Part shown: in pieces, positions 7,207 through 34,506 of the stretch
How the letters are laid out: each line of letters opens with the position of its first letter
How positions within the stretch are numbered: the first letter of the stretch is position 1
Virus record (IMG/VR): IMGVR_UViG_3300020182_000099
Span: 1-34,781 of that record
Direction: 5' to 3' (one strand)
Length of the DNA: 34,781 bases
Source: a virus
The notes under the pieces: model-generated
What the model was told of the DNA's origin: nothing
The model's database searches: none
Seen by the model: only the letters and a program-made list of their open reading frames with translations
Translations under genes and position numbers: made by a program

Positions 7207-7440
7207 ATGAAATCATTACCACTCGGAAAAACAATTGTCATCAACCCCAACAGGGAACCAGATGCACCAGAGCCAATAGAGATTGTGAAGAAGAAAATAA
7301 CTGGCATTGGCGATGTCGTGCACAAGATTGCACAGCCCATAGCCAAGTCAATTGATTCGATTGCTGGAACCAATATCCAAGGATGCGGAGCCTGTCAGAA
7401 ACGCAAAGAATACCTTAACAAAAAATTTCCAATAACCTAA
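7207..7440 (+). CDS. Small protein with C-terminal GCGACQKRKEYLNKKF motif
   Basis: I use the ATG at 7207, just after the preceding stop, rather than an in-frame ATG at 7186 that would overlap the previous gene. The 77-residue product has a basic N-terminus (MKSLPLGKTIVINPNRE) and a hydrophobic-amphipathic middle (KIAQPIAKSIDSIAGTN). It ends with a compact GCGxCxKRxxxLNK motif that I have seen at the ends of other small phage proteins. The CxxC could bind metal or form a disulfide. GA-rich sequence before the ATG may act as ribosome binding site. Function unknown. Confidence 0.6.
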   Translation: MKSLPLGKTIVINPNREPDAPEPIEIVKKKITGIGDVVHKIAQPIAKSIDSIAGTNIQGCGACQKRKEYLNKKFPIT

Positions 7441-7448
7441 ACCCCTTA

Positions 7449-7457
7449 TGATACAAT
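7449..7457 (+). promoter_or_regulatory. Extended -10 promoter (TGATACAAT) predicting leaderless mRNA
   Basis: TG at 7449-7450, one spacer base, then TACAAT at 7452-7457. Six bases separate it from the ATG at 7464, so the expected +1 is the A of the start codon. No good -35 is seen, as is usual for extended -10 promoters. The same element recurs at 27865 and, as TGATATAAT, at 34234. Confidence 0.6.
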
Positions 7458-7463
7458 AGCGAT

Positions 7464-9197
7464 ATGACTCCAGAAGAAATAGAAGCAGAGCTCCTGCGCC
7501 AAGAACAACTATCTAACCCTATGATGCAGCCCACTGACCTAATGGGTCAGCAGGGTCAACAGGAGCCCGTGATGGATACCAATCCTCTTGCCCTCGCTGA
7601 ACTAGTAAATGCGGATCGAGCACAAGCAGCATCGGCAAAGGATCTAATAGGAGGAGATACTTCCGTAGAACCATTGGACTTTGCGGGTGAAATACAAAAT
7701 AACTCAACGCCGTATTCCAGTCTGGTGGACAACAGCCCGTTCACTGCATTGGGTGGCACTCCTGTAGAGGAAAACCAATATACGGTTGCACGGGCTGGGT
7801 TGACACCAGAAGAACGCGCTAGAATCGAAACTCGACTTGCGCGGACAAATGCTGACATCCTTGCCGAAAATACACCAGAAGAGTACAGGCCTATTGGCGG
7901 AGGCTTCTCATTCGGGGGAGACATACCGATTCCACGAGACACTCCAGAGGGGGCAACATTTATGGGAGATGTTAGTAAACTTTTAGCTCCGTTCACCGCA
8001 CACTCTCAAAAGGTTGGTGGGTTCCCAGCACCAACTCTAGATACGGCTTTAGCTGAACAAGGTACAACTCCAGCTTTAGCTGAACAAGGTAGCCCTCAAG
8101 CTATCTTTGAGGGGATGAGAGCTAAGGGTCCTTTGAGTCCAGAGCTTATTGCAGCGGGTCAGAAACGGGCTGCGCTTCTGGGTACAACCTTTGATCCAGA
8201 AACAGGTTTCTCTAGGGATCCATTCCTACAATTCCAACAAGCTCAACAGGCTCAACAAGCCGAGCGGGGAGCCTTAGCTAACCGTCCTGGGTACGGTTAT
8301 GGTGGTGCAGTCAATGATCAATATCAGAGTGCAGATTTTGATACAATCTCACAGGGAGTATTCGATACGCCAATGACTGGTATGCGACCAATCAATTCAG
8401 AAACTGGTGAACCCCTATCGCAGGGTGTTATTGATGCTGCTGCTCGTGCTGGCCTAGAACTACCAATGGGATCAGTGCCGCTACCGAAAGCACCAGTGAA
8501 TTCGATACCTATGGGACAGGATGAAACCCGTGCTCGACTTGGCGGTATGACACTCAATCAATACCTCAATGCCCCCGATGGAGCTGTCTCTGGTTTACGT
8601 ACTGACCCACAGGGTCGTATGATTCCGGGTGGATTTGATAATCGTGCTGATGCCTATGGTCAGTACGAGGATGAAGTGTCACAAGCTTACCAACGCCAGT
8701 CCGAGCGGATGCAGCAACTAGCTGATCAACGTGACGGAACTGCTGGCCCCCGTACCTACGGTGGTTACACAACATCACAGCTTCGTGGTATGGTCGGCGG
8801 AGGAGACAACCTAAGAGCCGCTCAGATGCGAGCAGAGGCTGGACTCAATCCAGTTACAGGCAACCGTGAATCCACTGAAGAACAAAACCAACTTCAAACA
8901 GAAGTATTGAAAGCTCGACTAACTAAATTAAAAGAGCAAGACCCAGACAAGCTATCAAAAGCTGAATCATACGCCGACAGGCTCAAACTACAAGGTGATG
9001 CTAGAACAGCATTCATCTTCTCTCAGATGGGAACAGCGATGGATGACGTATTCGGTCTTGAGGGTACTGGTGCAGGTGGTGGCGGTGGCTCTTTTACGGA
9101 GGCACAACAATCCAGTATCTCTAAGGTGATGGCCGCAAACCCTGGGTCCAGCCGCGAACAAATTATTGCTGAAATGAAAAAGCAAGGTAAACTATAA
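7464..9197 (+). CDS. Low-complexity Gln/Ala/Gly-rich virion candidate (577 aa)
   Basis: The product is 577 residues, rich in Gln, Ala, Gly and Pro. It has short internal repeats: ALAEQGTTP/ALAEQGSPQ near residue 195 and QQAQQAQQAE near 265. A coiled-coil-prone segment lies at about 470-510 and a GAGGGGGS linker near residue 545. There is no transmembrane helix and no catalytic motif. Position directly before the 1141-aa internal protein, with which it shares a TAATG junction, suggests a virion or ejection-accessory protein. It appears to have its own extended -10 promoter with no 5' leader. Family not recognised. Confidence 0.6.
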   Translation: MTPEEIEAELLRQEQLSNPMMQPTDLMGQQGQQEPVMDTNPLALAELVNADRAQAASAKDLIGGDTSVEPLDFAGEIQNNSTPYSSLVDNSPFTALGGTPVEENQYTVARAGLTPEERARIETRLARTNADILAENTPEEYRPIGGGFSFGGDIPIPRDTPEGATFMGDVSKLLAPFTAHSQKVGGFPAPTLDTALAEQGTTPALAEQGSPQAIFEGMRAKGPLSPELIAAGQKRAALLGTTFDPETGFSRDPFLQFQQAQQAQQAERGALANRPGYGYGGAVNDQYQSADFDTISQGVFDTPMTGMRPINSETGEPLSQGVIDAAARAGLELPMGSVPLPKAPVNSIPMGQDETRARLGGMTLNQYLNAPDGAVSGLRTDPQGRMIPGGFDNRADAYGQYEDEVSQAYQRQSERMQQLADQRDGTAGPRTYGGYTTSQLRGMVGGGDNLRAAQMRAEAGLNPVTGNRESTEEQNQLQTEVLKARLTKLKEQDPDKLSKAESYADRLKLQGDARTAFIFSQMGTAMDDVFGLEGTGAGGGGGSFTEAQQSSISKVMAANPGSSREQIIAEMKKQGKL

Positions 9198-23494: not shown

Positions 23495-23595
23495 ATTGTT
23501 TATTCTTTATTAGTTATAGTTAAGAGTGAGACGCTATCAATGCAGCTAAAACAAAGTAAGTCAAGTATATATTTAAAAAAGATTAAATTCCCTAT

Positions 23596-23610
23596 TTAGA
23601 ATCATTCTAA
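23596..23610. promoter_or_regulatory. 15-bp palindrome, operator-like
   Basis: TTAGAAT-C-ATTCTAA is perfect, with 7-bp arms. It lies about 100 nt upstream of the leftward 55-aa gene, near a weak TTGACT box on the minus strand at about 23570. Confidence 0.5.
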
Positions 23611-23672
23611 TTAAGAATCGTACCAGGTACGCACTTTTACCCGTCAAAGCCTTCCACTATATGCAAAGCCAT

Positions 23673-23719
23673 AGCCGGTGGAATAACAGCCGGGTGAATC
23701 AATTAATAGCCGGGTGAAT
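23673..23719. repeat. Iteron-like direct repeats AGCCGGGTGAAT
   Basis: Two identical 12-mers (23688-23699, 23708-23719) lie 20 nt apart, with a degenerate third (AGCCGGTGGAAT, 23673-23684). Further GGTGAAC and GATGAAC words follow at about 23790-23835. Non-coding; resembles initiator-binding iterons. Confidence 0.55.
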
Positions 23720-23877
23720 GCATCCCATCTCCACAAAACAAAAAAACCCTTCACGCAACCGGCGACCGGCAGTCAAGATCCGGCAGCACCAGGTGAACAC
23801 TTGTGCAGTAGTGAACGGATGAACAGGGGAGGAGGGGGTTGAGTTGAGTCGCGCCGTCAGTATATATATACATATAC

Positions 23878-23910
23878 AGCCCCTTAAAAAAATTACCCAC
23901 TCAAGGGGCT
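23878..23910. other. 8-bp stem-loop AGCCCCTT/AAGGGGCT
   Basis: The arms at 23878-23885 and 23903-23910 pair perfectly around a 17-nt A-rich loop. No T-tract follows on either strand, so it is a weak terminator at best. A TATATATA run lies immediately to the left. Confidence 0.5.
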
Positions 23911-24194
23911 TCTACCACGGACAGGAATCCAATAACATAGAAATCAACGTGAATTACCTTTAATCCTATGAAAGTTAGCAAACCAGAGCGCATTCATAGT
24001 TAATCCAATATCTTTTCACTGTGTACCATAAGATGTCAGTTTATGACTTCTCTTTTATGATTCCCTTTATTTTATATTCATTAAAGGAATTACGTTTAGG
24101 ACTTAACTGCCTTATGAAGTTGCTGCCTTATGGTACGCAGAGTATAACACGAAATCTGGGAATGTATACGTATATACTGAACTTTCTTTTATGT

Positions 24195-24209
24195 ATTAGC
24201 AATGCTAAT
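24195..24209. promoter_or_regulatory. 15-bp palindrome upstream of the packaging promoter
   Basis: ATTAGCA-A-TGCTAAT is a perfect palindrome with 7-bp arms. It ends 11 bp before the -35 box of the promoter at 24221-24249, a usual place for an activator or repressor site. Confidence 0.55.
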
Positions 24210-24220
24210 AGTATATTAAC

Positions 24221-24249
24221 TTGACAAGTAGTAAAACTAATGATAAGGT
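24221..24249 (+). promoter_or_regulatory. Promoter TTGACA-17-TAAGGT with TG extension; leaderless start
   Basis: A perfect TTGACA (24221-24226), exactly 17 bp, then TAAGGT (24244-24249) preceded by TGA. The ATG at 24256 lies 6 nt after the -10, so +1 should be the A of the start codon. No Shine-Dalgarno is possible on such a transcript. The -10 is weak, consistent with the palindrome 11 bp upstream being an activator site. Confidence 0.65.
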
Positions 24250-24255
24250 ACTGGT

Positions 24256-24840
24256 ATGGAAGATAGAGAAATGAATGCTACTGAGAAGGAGAAGGAGGCT
24301 TTGCTGAGCGAGATCCAGCAGAGTATCCACGAGGTGGCTAATGAGAAGCGGGGTTTAAAGCTCAAGTGCTTGAGCGTCTATGATCCCGCGAAGGTGGCTA
24401 AGTTGCTTTATCTGTACAGTACAGGGAGCAGCCAGACTAGGCTGGTACGTCACTATGGTTTCGAGCGAGATACTGTGATTAGTGTACTGGCGGACTACGC
24501 GGACCATATGGGGACTTTTAAGGAGTTAAGTGGTCGTATAGCGGCCAAGAACTATCTGAACCTCAGTAGCCTAGAGGAGGATTTAATCGATAAGGTACGC
24601 GATCGCTTGGAGAATGATCCGGAGATGGAGGTCGGGTTCAAGGACATCAAGGAGTTATCCATAGCTAAGTCCAATGCTTCCAGAGAGGCTATGACAGCTA
24701 GAGGGGAAGCTACGCATATTACAGAGGACCGAAAGGTGTACACACAGGATGACTACGAGGCGACTATAGCTGCTGCTAGGAAGAGGATCGAGCAGGCTAA
24801 GGTAGCTGATATAATAGAGATAGAGGAGGATGTCGGGTAA
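24256..24840 (+). CDS. Putative small terminase subunit / HTH DNA-binding protein
   Basis: The 194-residue charged, helical protein has a helix-turn-helix-like stretch at about residues 45-75 (VAKLLYLYSTGSSQTRLVRHYGFERDTVISVLADYADH). A coiled-coil middle (SSLEEDLIDKVRDRLENDPE) and an acidic tail (DIIEIEEDVG) follow. An HTH plus helical oligomerisation region at the start of a packaging operon, four small genes before the large terminase, is the usual position and build of a small terminase that recognises phage DNA. Transcription appears to start at its ATG. A transcriptional regulator is the alternative. Confidence 0.6.
   Translation: MEDREMNATEKEKEALLSEIQQSIHEVANEKRGLKLKCLSVYDPAKVAKLLYLYSTGSSQTRLVRHYGFERDTVISVLADYADHMGTFKELSGRIAAKNYLNLSSLEEDLIDKVRDRLENDPEMEVGFKDIKELSIAKSNASREAMTARGEATHITEDRKVYTQDDYEATIAAARKRIEQAKVADIIEIEEDVG
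24807..24815 (+). promoter_or_regulatory. Possible internal extended -10 (TGATATAAT)
   Basis: The same 9-mer as at 34234 occurs near the 3' end of the preceding gene, about 95 nt before the 24911 start. It overlaps coding sequence, so chance is possible. Confidence 0.3.
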
Positions 24841-25699: not shown

Positions 25700-27370
25700 A
25701 TGCTTGATTTCACAGAGCACCCAATCCTCAAGCCGCCCACGGACGAGGAGATTGTCCTTCTAGGAGAAGCTGACCCCAAGCTACTAGAGGAACTACACAG
25801 GGCGCACGAGGGTAGAATCCGAGCAGCTACGGATGATCCTATCCGCTATGGGTTCGACCTACCGGGCTGGGAGCGTATGTCGGATTCCTTCAGGGAGTAC
25901 AATGAGGTACTAGCACTAGGTGGGAATCGTAGTGGCAAAACAACGGGCTGTGCGAAGCGCATAATGGAAGCTGTGAGTTCTAACTTCGATGGACACATAG
26001 TATGCTTTTCTCAGAATGCGGATACTTCTATTAAGGTACAGCAGCCAGCTATCTGGGAGATGATGCCCAAGGAGTTCAGGAAGAAGACCAAGAGCATTGA
26101 CGGGTACATTAACTATTCAATGCAGAATGGCTTTACTGGGAGTTCGTTTGTATTCCCCGACACTAGGACGCGAGTGGACTTCAAGACTTATACACAGTTC
26201 AGTAATAACTCCACTATCCTTGAGGGTTTCGAGTTCGGGTTCAAGAAGGGTAGTATCAAGTCCGGGAATGAATCAAATATCGGAGCCTGGCTGGACGAGT
26301 ACCTAGGTGACGCTGCTTTGGTAAATACCCTACGGTTCCGCCTAGCTACACGGGATTCAAAGATGGTGATTGGGTTCACCCCGATTGACGGGTATACACC
26401 TTTTATATCTGACTATTTAAAGGGAGCAGAGACCCTTGAGACTAGACCTGCCGCCCTGTTACGGGGCAAGGAGGTTCCTACTAAGCAGTACAGTCCAAGC
26501 CGTGATGCGGCTGTGATCTACCTGCATTCGGACGAGAACCCATTCGGGGGTTACGAGCGAATTGCAAAGGATCTAGCCGGGCGACCAGAGGATGAGATAA
26601 AGGTCCGTGCGTACGGATTACCCGTGAAGTCAGCCAATGCTCTGCTCCCTTACTTTAATACTGAGGTAAACGTGCTCAATGAGAATCCAAACAAATACAA
26701 GATGACGTTCCCCGACATTTCCGATAAGTCGCAGTTCACCTGCTACCAGGTAGTTGACCCCGCTGGTGCAAGGAACTATACTTGTATCTGGGCTGGGGTT
26801 AACAAAGATGGCGAGGTATACATCCGCAGGGAGTGGCCGGACCGCAACACGTACGGCGAGTGGGCTATGTTCGGGGACCCGAAATGGAAGTACGGCCCAG
26901 CAGCCAAGAAGATTGGTCTAAATGTTGAGGGGTACTGCGAGTTATTTGAGGAGATTGAGGATGACCTAGGTATTGAGGTAATCGAGAGAATTGGGGACTC
27001 GCGTTTCTTTGCTAGAGAGAATGAGAACAATGACGATCTCTTTACATCATTTTATGACTTCGGTCTAAGCTTTTTACCATCCGACGGTAAGATGGAAGAA
27101 CAAGGCATCACAGCTCTGGATGACTGGTTTAACTACAATCCTAATGTAGACATTGACCAAGCCAATAGACCAAGATGCTACATTCACGAGGACTGCGGTA
27201 ATCTTATCGATAGCCTTATTAACTACAATGCAGGTGGTAAGCCAGAGGAAGCCCTAAAGGATTTCTTTGACGTTATACGCTATTTGCGGATGTCAAACGG
27301 TGGAGAAGGTCCTGACTTTCTTTCATCTAATGATATGATCACTACTAAACCCCGCAAGGGAGGATACTAA
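25700..27370 (+). CDS. terL: Terminase large subunit
   Basis: The 556-residue protein has an N-terminal ATPase. Walker A is GGNRSGKTT (about residues 74-82), Walker B with catalytic acid is NIGAWLDE (193-200), and the coupling motif is IGFTP (224-228). The C-terminal RNase H-like nuclease has VVDPAGAR (Asp near 353), IGDSR (Asp near 433) and DFFDVIRYLR (acidic residues near 521-524). It cuts and pumps phage DNA into the prohead through the portal. Length and motif order are complete. The start lies 2 nt after the preceding stop; the stop overlaps the next start. Confidence 0.97.
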   Translation: MLDFTEHPILKPPTDEEIVLLGEADPKLLEELHRAHEGRIRAATDDPIRYGFDLPGWERMSDSFREYNEVLALGGNRSGKTTGCAKRIMEAVSSNFDGHIVCFSQNADTSIKVQQPAIWEMMPKEFRKKTKSIDGYINYSMQNGFTGSSFVFPDTRTRVDFKTYTQFSNNSTILEGFEFGFKKGSIKSGNESNIGAWLDEYLGDAALVNTLRFRLATRDSKMVIGFTPIDGYTPFISDYLKGAETLETRPAALLRGKEVPTKQYSPSRDAAVIYLHSDENPFGGYERIAKDLAGRPEDEIKVRAYGLPVKSANALLPYFNTEVNVLNENPNKYKMTFPDISDKSQFTCYQVVDPAGARNYTCIWAGVNKDGEVYIRREWPDRNTYGEWAMFGDPKWKYGPAAKKIGLNVEGYCELFEEIEDDLGIEVIERIGDSRFFARENENNDDLFTSFYDFGLSFLPSDGKMEEQGITALDDWFNYNPNVDIDQANRPRCYIHEDCGNLIDSLINYNAGGKPEEALKDFFDVIRYLRMSNGGEGPDFLSSNDMITTKPRKGGY

Positions 27371-27744: not shown

Positions 27745-27949
27745 AAACATAACCCTTGATAGGGATTGGTGCAGGGAGCAATCCGACAGATTCGCTAGTT
27801 GGGAAATACTTCGCAGGTATGTGCTGCACGAAAGTGGAGTATCAATGACAAATGGTGACCTATGTGATACAATAGGCGTATCATCGACTTACACTGTCCG
27901 ATTGCTTAAATCCATACAAAAACGACTCGCAGAAAAAAATGCTGAATGA
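27731..27949 (+). CDS. Small HTH-like protein (72 aa)
   Basis: I use the ATG at 27731 (MSANKNITLDRDW), which overlaps the previous gene by 14 nt. The segment MTNGDLCDTIGVSSTYTVRLLKSIQKRL at about residues 39-66 reads as a winged-helix or HTH unit. It overlaps the portal start by 11 nt. A small DNA-binding regulator or packaging accessory is possible. An extended -10 element lies inside it. Confidence 0.55.
   Translation: MSANKNITLDRDWCREQSDRFASWEILRRYVLHESGVSMTNGDLCDTIGVSSTYTVRLLKSIQKRLAEKNAE
27865..27873 (+). promoter_or_regulatory. Internal extended -10 (TGATACAAT) ahead of portal
   Basis: The 9-mer and its flank (TGATACAATAGgCGTAT) nearly match the element at 7449 (TGATACAATAGCGATAT). 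Expected +1 is near 27880, about 60 nt before the portal ATG. It lies within coding sequence. Confidence 0.45.
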
Positions 27950-30758: not shown

Positions 30759-30767
30759 TGTTATAAT
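30759..30767 (+). promoter_or_regulatory. Extended -10 promoter (TGTTATAAT) before scaffold
   Basis: TG at 30759-30760, one base, then consensus TATAAT at 30762-30767, in the short gap between genes. Expected +1 is near 30774, giving a leader of about 20 nt to the ATG at 30794 or 35 nt to the alternative start at 30809. Confidence 0.65.
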
Positions 30768-30793
30768 GCGACCATCGCCATCGCTCGGCGTTA

Positions 30794-31900
30794 ATGAGTG
30801 GTAATAATATGACAGACGAAATCGAAACTGCTAACGCTGAGGCAGACCAAAGTTCAGTGGACAATAATAACTTATCCGTTGAGGATTTTGCAATGCGAAG
30901 GATCGGGCAACTGACCCCTGAGGCTGAAGAGCCAAAGGAGGAAGAGGCCGGAGAAACCGAGGAGCAGGAAACCGAGGAAGTAACTGAGGAGGAAACTGAG
31001 GAATCAGTTGAGACTGAGGAAGCTACTGAGGAGACCGAGGAATCCGACAATGTTCTTTCACAGTTGGACTTGGACGATATGTCCGAGGAGGATTTGCGGG
31101 AACTAGCTGACAAGCTAGGTAGCCGTGCTGTAGCTCGATTCGGTGAATTGACTGCTAAGCGCAAAGCTGCCGAAGAACGTCTAGCTAGTCTAGAAGCTAA
31201 ACTCAAGGAAAAACCTAACCCACTCGAAACAAAGAAGGTCGAAAATAACCCCTACAGTAACCTCGATTCTGTCGAAAAGTTACAGGACAAAGCAGGGGAA
31301 GTCGATCAAGTTGTTGAGTGGGCTGAGGATATTCTGTTCGAGAGTGATGGCTATTCTGCTGATGACATAGTAACCGAAATCGAAGGTAAGGAGTGGACAA
31401 AGAAGGATGTGCGACAGGCTTTATTAAAAGCCCGTAAAGCTCAGAAAACTTTTCTCCCCGATCAACTCAAGAAGGTTCAGGCACAAATCGAAGGGGAGCA
31501 GCTTGCTGATTCTTTCTCGGAACGTGCCAGAAAAGAACTGACTTGGTTGGAAGGTGAGGACAATGACTTACGAAAACAATTTGAAGCCACTGTAGGTGAT
31601 GCACGTTTTAAGCAACTCAAGAAAGTTGTTAAGCGCGAAGCACCAGAGGTAGCCGCACAATTGGATTATTGGTTCGCTCACGCTACTAACAGTATTTACG
31701 GACGTAAGCCCGTAACTGAGCGTAAGACATCCGCAGTATTAAATCCTCCTAAATCAGCCAGTCCATCTGCATCCAAACCCGAAAAGGGAATGGGAAGAAC
31801 AGCCAAGGCCCTAAAAGAATTAGAGGCTCGGTTTAAAGAAACGGGTAGCGCAAGCGATTTCGCCAACCTTAGGAAACTCAAAATGGCATCACGCCATTAA
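30794..31900 (+). CDS. Scaffold-like protein (acidic, coiled-coil)
   Basis: The 368-residue protein is extremely acidic from about residue 50 to 85 (runs of ETEE/ETEEAT). Coiled-coil-prone segments follow (AAEERLASLEAKLKE near 118-135; DQLKKVQAQIEGEQ near 220). The C-terminus is basic (PKSASPSASKPEKGMGRTAKALKELEARFKE, and ending KLKMASRH). Acidic start, helical middle and basic capsid-contacting tail, directly before the capsid gene, are the hallmarks of phage scaffolds that guide prohead assembly. MSGNNM and MTDEIE are alternative starts five codons apart. Confidence 0.78.
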   Translation: MSGNNMTDEIETANAEADQSSVDNNNLSVEDFAMRRIGQLTPEAEEPKEEEAGETEEQETEEVTEEETEESVETEEATEETEESDNVLSQLDLDDMSEEDLRELADKLGSRAVARFGELTAKRKAAEERLASLEAKLKEKPNPLETKKVENNPYSNLDSVEKLQDKAGEVDQVVEWAEDILFESDGYSADDIVTEIEGKEWTKKDVRQALLKARKAQKTFLPDQLKKVQAQIEGEQLADSFSERARKELTWLEGEDNDLRKQFEATVGDARFKQLKKVVKREAPEVAAQLDYWFAHATNSIYGRKPVTERKTSAVLNPPKSASPSASKPEKGMGRTAKALKELEARFKETGSASDFANLRKLKMASRH

Positions 31901-31935: not shown

Positions 31936-32934
31936 ATGGCATTCTCAAATACATTCGACACTACAAACCAAGGTTCTGGTGTCTCTAATCGTGAAGACCT
32001 CACTGACGTCTTGACAATTCTCGCTCCAGAAGAAACACCTATTCTTTCTTCTGCTAACAAAAAGGGCGCATCCGCAACTAAGGTTGAATGGACTGTTGAC
32101 TCTCTCTCGGCTCCCAGCACTGCTGGTATTGCTGAAGGTGCTGATGTTACAGCATTCACTGACCAATTCGCTGGACGTGCTCGCCTCGGCAATCGCGTTC
32201 AAAAGTTCCGCCGGGACTATATGGTTTCCGATCTGCAAGAAGCAGTCGATTCCGTTGGCCCAGCTAAGATTGCTCAAGCAGAAGCTAAAGCAATTCGTGA
32301 ACTCAAGCGCGACATCGAAGCAAGTCTTGCTTCAGCTAACACTCAGACAACCGAAGATGGTGCTGGTGTAGTTAATCGCCTTGGTGGTCTTGGTGACTGG
32401 ATTCAAAATGCTGCTGGTTCGGGTAACGTTCCTGCTCCATTCCAAACTCCAGCTGCAAGCATCGCTGACGTAACTGATGCCAATTTCGCAGAAAGCGAAT
32501 TGAACTCTCTTATCTCTTCGATCTTCAAGGTTACTGGTACATCCAACAACCTTATGCTCGTTGCTGATACAGCACTCCGTCAAGACATCAGCGACTTCGC
32601 TCGCATCGGTGGCGTATCGGGTGACTCGGTTCGTGCAGTTAACTACAACGGCGAAAGCGGCACTATCAAGCTTTCCGTTGATCTCTATCAAAGCGATCAC
32701 GGTATCGTCTCTGTTGTAAACGCTAACCCTGACTGTATGCCAGTACAAGCTGGTACTGCTGGAATGGCTGGTTACTTGGTGAATCCTGAGTACTACGGTG
32801 TTCACGAGCTTATCCCTATGGGTAGCAGCCGCCTTCCAAATCTTGGTGGTGGTGACCGTGGCTTCGTTGATTGCGCTTTGACCCTCGGTGTATACCACCC
32901 TGGTGCTCACGGCAAGATTGTCAGCACAAGCTAA
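31936..32934 (+). CDS. Major capsid protein (SU10/DUF5309-like)
   Basis: The 332-residue protein opens with TFDTTNQGSGVSNREDL, then TDVLTILAPEETPILSS and KVEWTVDSLSAP. This matches the N-terminus of the SU10-type major head protein family (DUF5309), an HK97-fold capsid protein. Later segments (LMLVADTALRQDISDF, YLVNPEYYGVHELIPMG) fit the same family. It is preceded by a scaffold-like gene and followed by a strong terminator, as expected for the most abundant protein. Codon use is even and rich in preferred codons. A TATAAA box lies 13 nt before the ATG. Confidence 0.88.
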   Translation: MAFSNTFDTTNQGSGVSNREDLTDVLTILAPEETPILSSANKKGASATKVEWTVDSLSAPSTAGIAEGADVTAFTDQFAGRARLGNRVQKFRRDYMVSDLQEAVDSVGPAKIAQAEAKAIRELKRDIEASLASANTQTTEDGAGVVNRLGGLGDWIQNAAGSGNVPAPFQTPAASIADVTDANFAESELNSLISSIFKVTGTSNNLMLVADTALRQDISDFARIGGVSGDSVRAVNYNGESGTIKLSVDLYQSDHGIVSVVNANPDCMPVQAGTAGMAGYLVNPEYYGVHELIPMGSSRLPNLGGGDRGFVDCALTLGVYHPGAHGKIVSTS

Positions 32935-32947
32935 ATAAATTCTGGTT

Positions 32948-32977
32948 GGGGGGCGCAAGCCCCCCTGCCTTTTTTTT
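32948..32977 (+). terminator. Rho-independent terminator after the capsid gene
   Basis: G6-C-GCAA-G-C6 (32948-32965) is a 7-bp GC stem closed by a GNRA-type GCAA loop, followed by TGCC and eight T. The T-run ends exactly at the next ATG (32978). It should give high capsid mRNA and partial read-through to tail genes. Confidence 0.92.
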
Positions 32978-33286
32978 ATGGATATTATTAAGCCCAATTC
33001 AAAGACTTACTCCGACGAGGAGATTGATCGCGCTCTAATCCAAGAGATTCAGAATAGTCTTCACTTGGAACAGGCGACCGAACAGGTTCGTCACCAACAA
33101 GCAGCCAAAGAAGCGCATCAACTTAAAGGAACTATTCATCCCACATTGGGACGACCAGTTGCTACAATGCCAGCACGAGAATTTTTTCGACTGGTAAAGA
33201 AGTACGGTCAAGAGACCGTGCATTCTAAAGAATTTTTAAAGTACTACAATAAGAAGTTTCCGGAACTTAGCCCCAACAAAATATAA
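32978..33286 (+). CDS. Hypothetical protein after the capsid gene (102 aa)
   Basis: The product starts MDIIKPNSKTYSDEEIDRAL and is helical through about residue 50 (QEIQNSLHLEQATEQVRHQQAAKEAHQL). A conserved-looking segment follows (HPTLGRPVATMPAREFFRLVKKYGQE), ending KKFPELSPNKI. Similar proteins sit just after capsid genes in other phages; role unknown, perhaps head-completion. No Shine-Dalgarno is possible, since the terminator T-run abuts the ATG. Its stop overlaps the next start (TAATG). Confidence 0.65.
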   Translation: MDIIKPNSKTYSDEEIDRALIQEIQNSLHLEQATEQVRHQQAAKEAHQLKGTIHPTLGRPVATMPAREFFRLVKKYGQETVHSKEFLKYYNKKFPELSPNKI

Positions 33287-34224
33287 TGCAGACCAGAACT
33301 TACGGCGATCTTTTCAAACTAGCCTCCGCTCTTATCGGGACAGGCGGGGAACTATCCACTAGTGAACAGGATCAACTGAGTCATTTTATTAACCGTAGGT
33401 TCTCCGAGATCTTCAATGCAAGCCCAAGCTGGCCTCGGTACATTACTGTAGGTGATCCACGACCTATTGGGACTAATCAAATTATTTCAACCCAGGGTGG
33501 CAACGTTGGTGTATACGGGGCCGGAACCGCCGCAGTCAATGGACTGTATGTAAGAAATGGGAACAGCATAGACGGTAACCCTGCATTTACGCTTTACGAT
33601 ACGGATGGAACTACTGCTTTATATAATCTATGGAGCGACTCATTAAATGCTTGGTATATTACCTCACAGGGAATTGATGACCCATCGCTCGCCGAAGTCG
33701 GCGATGCTCTTTACCTAGCTTCAGTCCCACAAGTTCCGGGCGATCCACCATCATCTGGATGGTATGTATGTCCAACTTGCACAGGTGAAGAGCCAGCTCC
33801 TAAAGCTAACAATTTGTCAAGCATTGGTGAGTTCGTCCGTATTCACAACACTCAACCACTACTGAACCGATCAGCGCGTGAGTACGAGTTCTATGTATCA
33901 TTTGCTGGAGCGCACATCCTTAACATAGAATCAACTACGAATGACACCGCCTGGGTAACTTACAAGAGTGAGTTTACTCCATTTGATGTAACCGTTGATT
34001 ATTATACTTCTACAGTAGAAGTACCAGCGGAGTTCTTTAACTTTATTAGCCACGCAGTTTATGCTGACTTCCTCCGGGTGCAGAACAAGCAAGAGGAAGC
34101 ACTCGCAGAGGAGCAAGCTGCCCAAACCTTTCTAGCACTTGAGCTGGAGAAGATCGACCTACGTTCTAACAACAACACAATTAACAAGAAGTTTTCAACT
34201 TACGTAAATCGTCAAGCACGATAA
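33286..34224 (+). CDS. Head-tail connector / neck protein candidate
   Basis: The 312-residue protein starts MQTRTYGDLFKLASALIGTGG and continues ELSTSEQDQLSHFINRRFSE, then INRRFSEIFNASPSWPRYITVGDPR. This helical opening with FINRR and WPRY is a pattern I associate with phage neck or adaptor proteins that follow the capsid gene. The middle (residues 65-165) is a beta-rich insertion with two Cys (WYVCPTCTG). The C-terminal third is again conserved-looking (EFFNFISHAVYADFLRVQNKQEEALAEEQ). It would seal the portal to the tail. Function inferred from position and pattern. Confidence 0.65.
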   Translation: MQTRTYGDLFKLASALIGTGGELSTSEQDQLSHFINRRFSEIFNASPSWPRYITVGDPRPIGTNQIISTQGGNVGVYGAGTAAVNGLYVRNGNSIDGNPAFTLYDTDGTTALYNLWSDSLNAWYITSQGIDDPSLAEVGDALYLASVPQVPGDPPSSGWYVCPTCTGEEPAPKANNLSSIGEFVRIHNTQPLLNRSAREYEFYVSFAGAHILNIESTTNDTAWVTYKSEFTPFDVTVDYYTSTVEVPAEFFNFISHAVYADFLRVQNKQEEALAEEQAAQTFLALELEKIDLRSNNNTINKKFSTYVNRQAR

Positions 34225-34233
34225 CAACCCCTG

Positions 34234-34242
34234 TGATATAAT
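34234..34242 (+). promoter_or_regulatory. Extended -10 promoter (TGATATAAT) predicting leaderless mRNA
   Basis: TG at 34234-34235, then TATAAT at 34237-34242. Exactly 6 nt separate it from the ATG at 34249, so the expected +1 is the A of ATG. It fills the 24-nt gap between two genes. Confidence 0.65.
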
Positions 34243-34248
34243 AAAATT

Positions 34249-34506
34249 ATGGCTAACTCAAAAAATAACGCACTGGAATTTTCCTCCGCTGGATCGGAGA
34301 TCCTTGAAGCTGCTGATGCAGTAACAGGTAAACGCTATGGAGCGTTGCAAATCTTAAATAACACTGTGTTCAGTGCTTTGACTGCATCCAGCATTGACGG
34401 TACAGCTAAGCTAGTTGGACCAACCTTTGCTGCTGGAACAATCATTTATGGAGCATTCAGCGAAGTAACAGTAACTTCTGGTCTCGTAGCAGCGCACAAG
34501 TACTAG
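34249..34506 (+). CDS. Small beta-rich virion candidate (85 aa)
   Basis: The product starts MANSKNNALEFSSAGSEILE and is rich in Ala, Thr and Val (RYGALQILNNTVFSALTASS, then GPTFAAGTIIYGAFSEVTVTSG). This is a short beta-domain pattern found in many aquatic phages next to tail genes. It probably packs in the virion as a decoration or tail-accessory protein; this is inference. The promoter right before it lacks room for a ribosome site. Confidence 0.6.
   Translation: MANSKNNALEFSSAGSEILEAADAVTGKRYGALQILNNTVFSALTASSIDGTAKLVGPTFAAGTIIYGAFSEVTVTSGLVAAHKY

Follow-up and report, generated by a model that had tools for sequence, protein, structure and literature searches.

Gene Layout of the Window

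The window, i.e., the whole stretch of DNA analyzed, is a virus record of 34,781 bases with 46% G+C (IMG/VR IMGVR_UViG_3300020182_000099, positions 1-34,781). A leftward and a rightward gene cluster are separated by about 760 nt without a convincing gene (23495-24255). A DnaB-like helicase is encoded on the leftward strand. The window also contains a match to the large terminase (25700-27370; TerL, phrog_2); a major head protein match lies at 31936-32934. The first gene after the separating region (24256-24840, forward strand) encodes a 194-aa protein that is probably the small terminase subunit, an assignment based only on its position upstream of the large terminase gene. Two further forward genes are predicted to be leaderless ORFs: one encodes a 577-aa late protein (7464-9197) that showed no match in PHROGs or Pfam, and the other an 85-aa protein (34249-34506) that belongs to the structural module and consists mostly of beta strands, whose structural model is of moderate quality and whose PDB matches are weak, many of them being cupin or cyclic-nucleotide-binding type folds.

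A megablast search against named phages gave no match, and protein searches against them yielded a single near relative, C75C1 (OQ984151). Near 24149 there is a leftward promoter-like site followed by CATAAGGCAG-type repeats, and relatives repeatedly show a TACC-TAAG motif downstream of the corresponding site. A terminator-like hairpin (GGGGGGCGCAAGCCCCCC) with a T run (32948-32978) adjoins the ATG at 32978, and C75C1 has a similar hairpin and T run before the ATG at 31026.

Boxes Six Nucleotides Upstream of Three Start Codons

The original prediction placed TGn-N6 extended -10 elements exactly 6 nt before the ATG codons at 7464, 24256, and 34249, and all its coordinates and gaps were confirmed, each element having the form TGn-TAnnnT: TGATACAAT (7449-7457), TGATAAGGT (24241-24249), and TGATATAAT (34234-34242) are each separated from the respective ATG by 6 nt. 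At the 7464 site, the putative promoter cassette (7441-7463, forward strand) consists of the extended -10 element TTATGA-TACAAT (7447-7457) and 6 nt, with a predicted +1 at A7464, and fills the 23-nt gap left by the upstream gene, whose stop codon ends at 7440. The 34249 cassette (34225-34248, forward strand) is built in the same way, with TGTGA-TATAAT (34232-34242), 6 nt, and a predicted +1 at A34249, and fills the 24-nt gap after a stop codon that ends at 34224. Neither cassette has a -35 element, there being no TTGACA at that position of the 7449 and 34234 sites. At both genes, the TGA within the box is an in-frame stop, and thus no start can lie between it and the ATG at 7464.

The TGnTAnnnT motif occurs 96 times on both strands of the window. 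For its 46 gene starts, 0.063 matches are expected per spacing and three were seen at gap 6 (gap being the number of bases between box and ATG), a count that base shuffling of the upstream regions never produced in 2000 trials; the expectation falls to 0.022 for TGATAnnnT, again with three seen at gap 6, and none of 5000 shuffles gave that many, all these shuffle figures being optimistic because motif and spacing were picked after the data had been seen. In our reading, it is the conservation in relatives that removes the doubt about the 7464 and 34249 sites.

Conservation of the Box-to-ATG Distance at 34249 and 7464

The comparison set for the 34249 gene comprised 80 IMG/VR loci retrieved through an 11-member protein alignment, and the related loci read TG[AC]TATAAT, six variable bases, and ATG. 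The TGnTATAAT box was found at gap 6 in 65 of the 80 relatives (64 perfect, one with a single mismatch) and at gap 7 in eight (seven perfect, one with two mismatches), which makes 73/80, and no box was found at any other distance among them; the remaining seven lack it. A relative fetched outside this set (G010) has the box at gap 8. Across the 21 distinct gap-6 sites, T-17, T-15, G-14, T-12, A-11, A-9, A-8, T-7, and A-6 are invariant, position -10 is T in 20, and position -16 is always G or A, i.e., TRTG. Positions -5, -4, and -2 are variable, so that spacers such as AAAATT, ACAATT, ATCACT, and ACCGAT differ in their bases at a fixed distance, while base -1 is T in 20 sites and C in one, and +1 is A. 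Insertions and deletions occur immediately upstream of the box, and this variation in length indicates that the fixed distance is the one to the ATG and not to the upstream gene. On contig L149, the same cassette precedes another N-terminal sequence, again at gap 6. The seven relatives without the box suggest that the gene can also be expressed from an upstream transcript without a Shine-Dalgarno (SD) site. C75C1 has no box at its homologues of the 34249 and 24256 genes.

For the 7464 site, IMG/VR was scanned for AACCCYTTATGNTATAAT, a pattern that does not include the start codon, and 72 stretches were returned. The first ORF-opening ATG lies at gap 6 in 23 of them, at gap 7 in 18, and at gap 8 in one (42/72; 41/72 for gaps 6-7), and among the 72 matches none was found at gaps 0-5 or 9-15; the others have an ATG at 16 or more, or no ORF nearby. 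The 42 close-gap matches were assigned to this phage group from their base composition, the N-termini they share, and the length of the gene, and not from a tree. In relatives G002-G006, gap 6 is kept at the 7464 site in all cases. The test that had been set beforehand, i.e., that the 9-mer and its 6-nt spacing should be kept in relatives, was thus strongly passed at both 34249 and 7464.

In other phages, the same box is followed by leaders of 20-34 nt, often with AGGA-type ribosome sites; some contigs combine TTGACA upstream of the box with such a ribosome site ahead of an ATG that is 22-34 nt away. These leadered matches constitute a natural control, since they show the box in combination with a leader outside this group. 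In other, mostly low-GC phages (L350, L365, L370, L371, L377, and L385), (a)gggttgacaannTCAACCC-TTATGNTATAAT was observed as a recurrent promoter; its inverted repeats overlap the -35 and the spacer, and it precedes short ORFs with AGGA-type leaders.

A group-wide check covered 247 loci with 104 distinct TGnTATAAT contexts; these loci came from searches with the same families, and the check therefore overlaps the evidence from 34249 and 7464. Within 45 nt of an ORF start, the box was found at gap 6 in 36 contexts, at gap 7 in nine, at gap 8 in six, at gap 11 in two, at gap 0 in two, and at gaps of at least 26 in 14 (mainly the 30759 site described below); no case was found at gaps 1-5 or 12-25 in the 247 loci. 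Some of the gap-8 and gap-11 cases correspond to a box at 24807, inside the coding sequence of the 24256 gene.

The relatives with gap 7 or 8 bear on the precise point of initiation. The promoters might be real and initiation might be scattered or occur mostly 2-5 nt upstream of the ATG, yielding short leaders and near-leaderless messages; purines at spacer position 5 (AGCGAT, ACCGAT) would indeed permit starts 1-3 nt upstream. However, a pyrimidine (T or C) almost always precedes the ATG, with an A at +1, and in ACACCCT-ATG the sole purine within reach is the A of the ATG, which makes this alternative improbable.

The Promoter Upstream of the Probable Small Terminase Gene

The 24256 site is different. 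Its putative promoter (24221-24255, forward strand) comprises TTGACA (24221-24226), a 17-nt spacer, TAAGGT (24244-24249), and 6 nt before the ATG, with a predicted +1 at or near A24256. The comparison retained 80 relatives that were 66-99% identical. TTGACA stands 35 nt ahead of the start codon in the window and its close relatives, and at 34-38 nt in nearly all relatives when the start matching the N-terminus of the window protein is taken; the exceptions are L063, with 42 nt, and two loci for which the start chosen by the script gave no usable distance. The -10 is weak and not conserved: close relatives read TGAGGT where the window has TAAGGT, losing the key position 2, and the whole box is TGATGAGGT instead of TGATAAGGT. 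Thus, the predicted conservation of spacing stands here for the -35-to-ATG distance and fails for the -10. The former argues that transcription starts on the ATG or close to it, whereas the -10 evidence does not. Tentatively, and with less certainty than at the other two sites, this gene would probably be leaderless too, from a -35-driven promoter.

The 24807 box lies at gap 8 before an MKITIN start in relatives. It was considered as a gap-8 promoter and rejected, since it is coding sequence of the 24256 gene.

Related Elements With Leaders

The original prediction also proposed longer leaders for related elements at 30759 and 27865, and for the former a leader of about 35 nt is likely. There, the predicted extended -10 promoter TGTTATAAT (30759-30767) precedes a leader (the whole spanning 30759-30808, forward strand) with a conserved RNA element from 30774: six variable bases separate the box from the conserved element ATCGCCATCGCTCGGCG. 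A 28-nt conserved leader element, ATCGCCATCGCTCGGCGTTAATGAGTGG, was noted at 30759-30809, ahead of a 363-aa gene. The distance from TATAAT to the ATCG of the element is 6 nt in 47 and 7 nt in four of the 51 distinct contexts, from a scan pattern that admitted gaps of 3-9 only. This site would calibrate the start point, because the first base of the element falls where initiation of transcription is expected. The gene downstream probably starts at 30809 and not at the ATG at 30794, as the latter is directly followed by a stop in several relatives and a conserved start follows the variable spacer.

A CGCC/GGCG hairpin in this leader shows a few compensatory changes, with C-G replaced by G-C at two pairs; the two outermost pairs were already set by the pattern used for the search. 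The leader folds no better than shuffled sequences (z -0.47), the single-sequence fold favors another hairpin, and an Rfam search gave no match; structure in the leader is suggestive only.

As regards 27865, the element (TGATACAAT, 27865-27873, forward strand) lies within conserved coding sequence. A 17-nt distance separates its TACAAT from an upstream ATGACA, and the surrounding DNA is nearly unchanged across relatives. Possibly it drives the portal-like gene (27939) as a promoter with a leader; otherwise, it reflects coding conservation. Boxes that fall in conserved coding sequence, such as those at 27865 and 24807, illustrate how chance or coding constraint might account for the whole pattern. 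This is extremely improbable, as the boxes at 7449 and 34234 lie between genes and keep a fixed spacing over many divergent relatives, which refutes the explanation for two of the three sites.

The 30759 site also bears on the possibility that TGnTATAAT-N6-ATG is an RNA element within a longer upstream transcript, where it would act as an A/U-rich translation signal replacing the SD site. An SD-like motif was found in 27% of the ORFs of this genome, and this low use, together with the seven relatives that keep the 34249 gene without a box, is consistent with such an element. Against it, the conserved letters match an extended -10 promoter, including the TRTG one base upstream, the same box and offset at 30759 precede a leader and not an ATG, and unrelated phages use the same box with a -35 and SD leaders, so we consider this explanation very unlikely. 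As many genes lack an SD site anyway, leader loss is not needed to explain the missing ones.

Predicted Leaderless Late Messages and Known Systems

We consider it likely, with a probability of roughly 0.8, that -35-less extended -10 promoters yield late mRNAs that are leaderless or carry at most one or two leader bases. Promoter activity, exact start point, and leaderless translation are all inferred from position and conservation. The boxes at 7449 and 34234 would be extended -10 promoters recognized without a -35 by the host sigma-70-type RNA polymerase, both of them packed into the 23-24 nt gaps between late genes. The usual distance from box to start is 7-8 nt, so the message would begin on the A of the ATG; i.e., transcription would start 7 (sometimes 8) nt past the box, and the ribosome would have to recognize a 5'-terminal AUG without an SD site. 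A gap of 23-24 nt has room for such a promoter but would be too short for a leader that includes a ribosome site. Promoters of this class bypass the -35, and their consensus includes TRTG (PMC7403470); here, TRTGn precedes TATAAT with T-17, T-15, and G-14 invariant and no -35.

These sites offer a case, based on sequence only, of promoter-to-ATG spacing under selection in phages, with 30759 as a built-in calibrator and the same box with leaders in other phages as available natural controls. The model makes exact predictions of 5' ends, open to confirmation in metatranscriptomes, fixes gene starts, and suggests that leaderless messages arise in part from the packing of promoters between late genes.

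In lambda, the leaderless message is that of the cI repressor, a lysogeny gene, and not of late genes. Leaderless initiation was first found in this phage of E. coli (PMC3160421). The claim in the original prediction that phages have seldom been described as using leaderless transcription repeatedly for late genes needs tempering, because most middle and late mRNAs of the Thermus phage phiYS40 have no leader (PMC3594737). Our phage would share with phiYS40 leaderless late expression as a repeated design, but host and phage are different, and the case concerns an uncultured marine group, sequence conservation only, and two or three late promoters, with a leader at 30759, whereas the phiYS40 programme extends to most middle and late transcripts. 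In Actinobacteria and Deinococcus-Thermus, leaderless genes carry a TANNNT some 12 bp ahead of their start (PMC3160421, PMC12340547). The likeness lies in the constrained spacing of a -10 box that immediately precedes the ORF; however, those are cellular genes, while here we deal with phage late operons and a fuller extended -10 (TRTGnTATAAT). The Thermus phage P23-45, which has gp39, uses extended -10 middle and late promoters able to work without a -35 (PMC7403470), and thus its late promoters are of the same class. In a gp39-type switch, a phage factor displaces sigma region 4. No gp39-like factor was found among ten proteins of the leftward cluster, whose small early proteins have no informative PHROGs match; a novel factor may nonetheless be encoded. 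A search of the literature on leaderless phage promoters found no account of this phage group, which is no proof of absence. Thus, leaderless late phage mRNAs are already known, and their use by this phage group appears to be undescribed.

Possible Host

The only genome-contig match for the portal protein (74%) is a contig in an Opitutae MAG, which may be mis-binned. A portal match was found in 8 of 384 Opitutae genomes, including the MAG itself, the others being at 26-38%, and no control class was compared. Opitutae (Verrucomicrobiota) are thus possibly the host, a weak lead. In a broader scenario, which we regard as tentative and rather doubtful, a group of uncultured marine phages that is widespread and may infect Opitutae would express late genes from -35-less extended -10 promoters in 23-24 nt gaps, two late mRNAs starting with AUG and a third with a structured leader, and a phage factor may disable -35-dependent host promoters at the switch. 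The stretches of the Opitutae MAG show low SD use (11%), and low use in both MAG and phage would fit a host that tolerates initiation without SD sites. In the same MAG, TANNNT is modestly in excess at gaps 5 and 6, with 11 and 16 of 371 ORFs vs. about 5.
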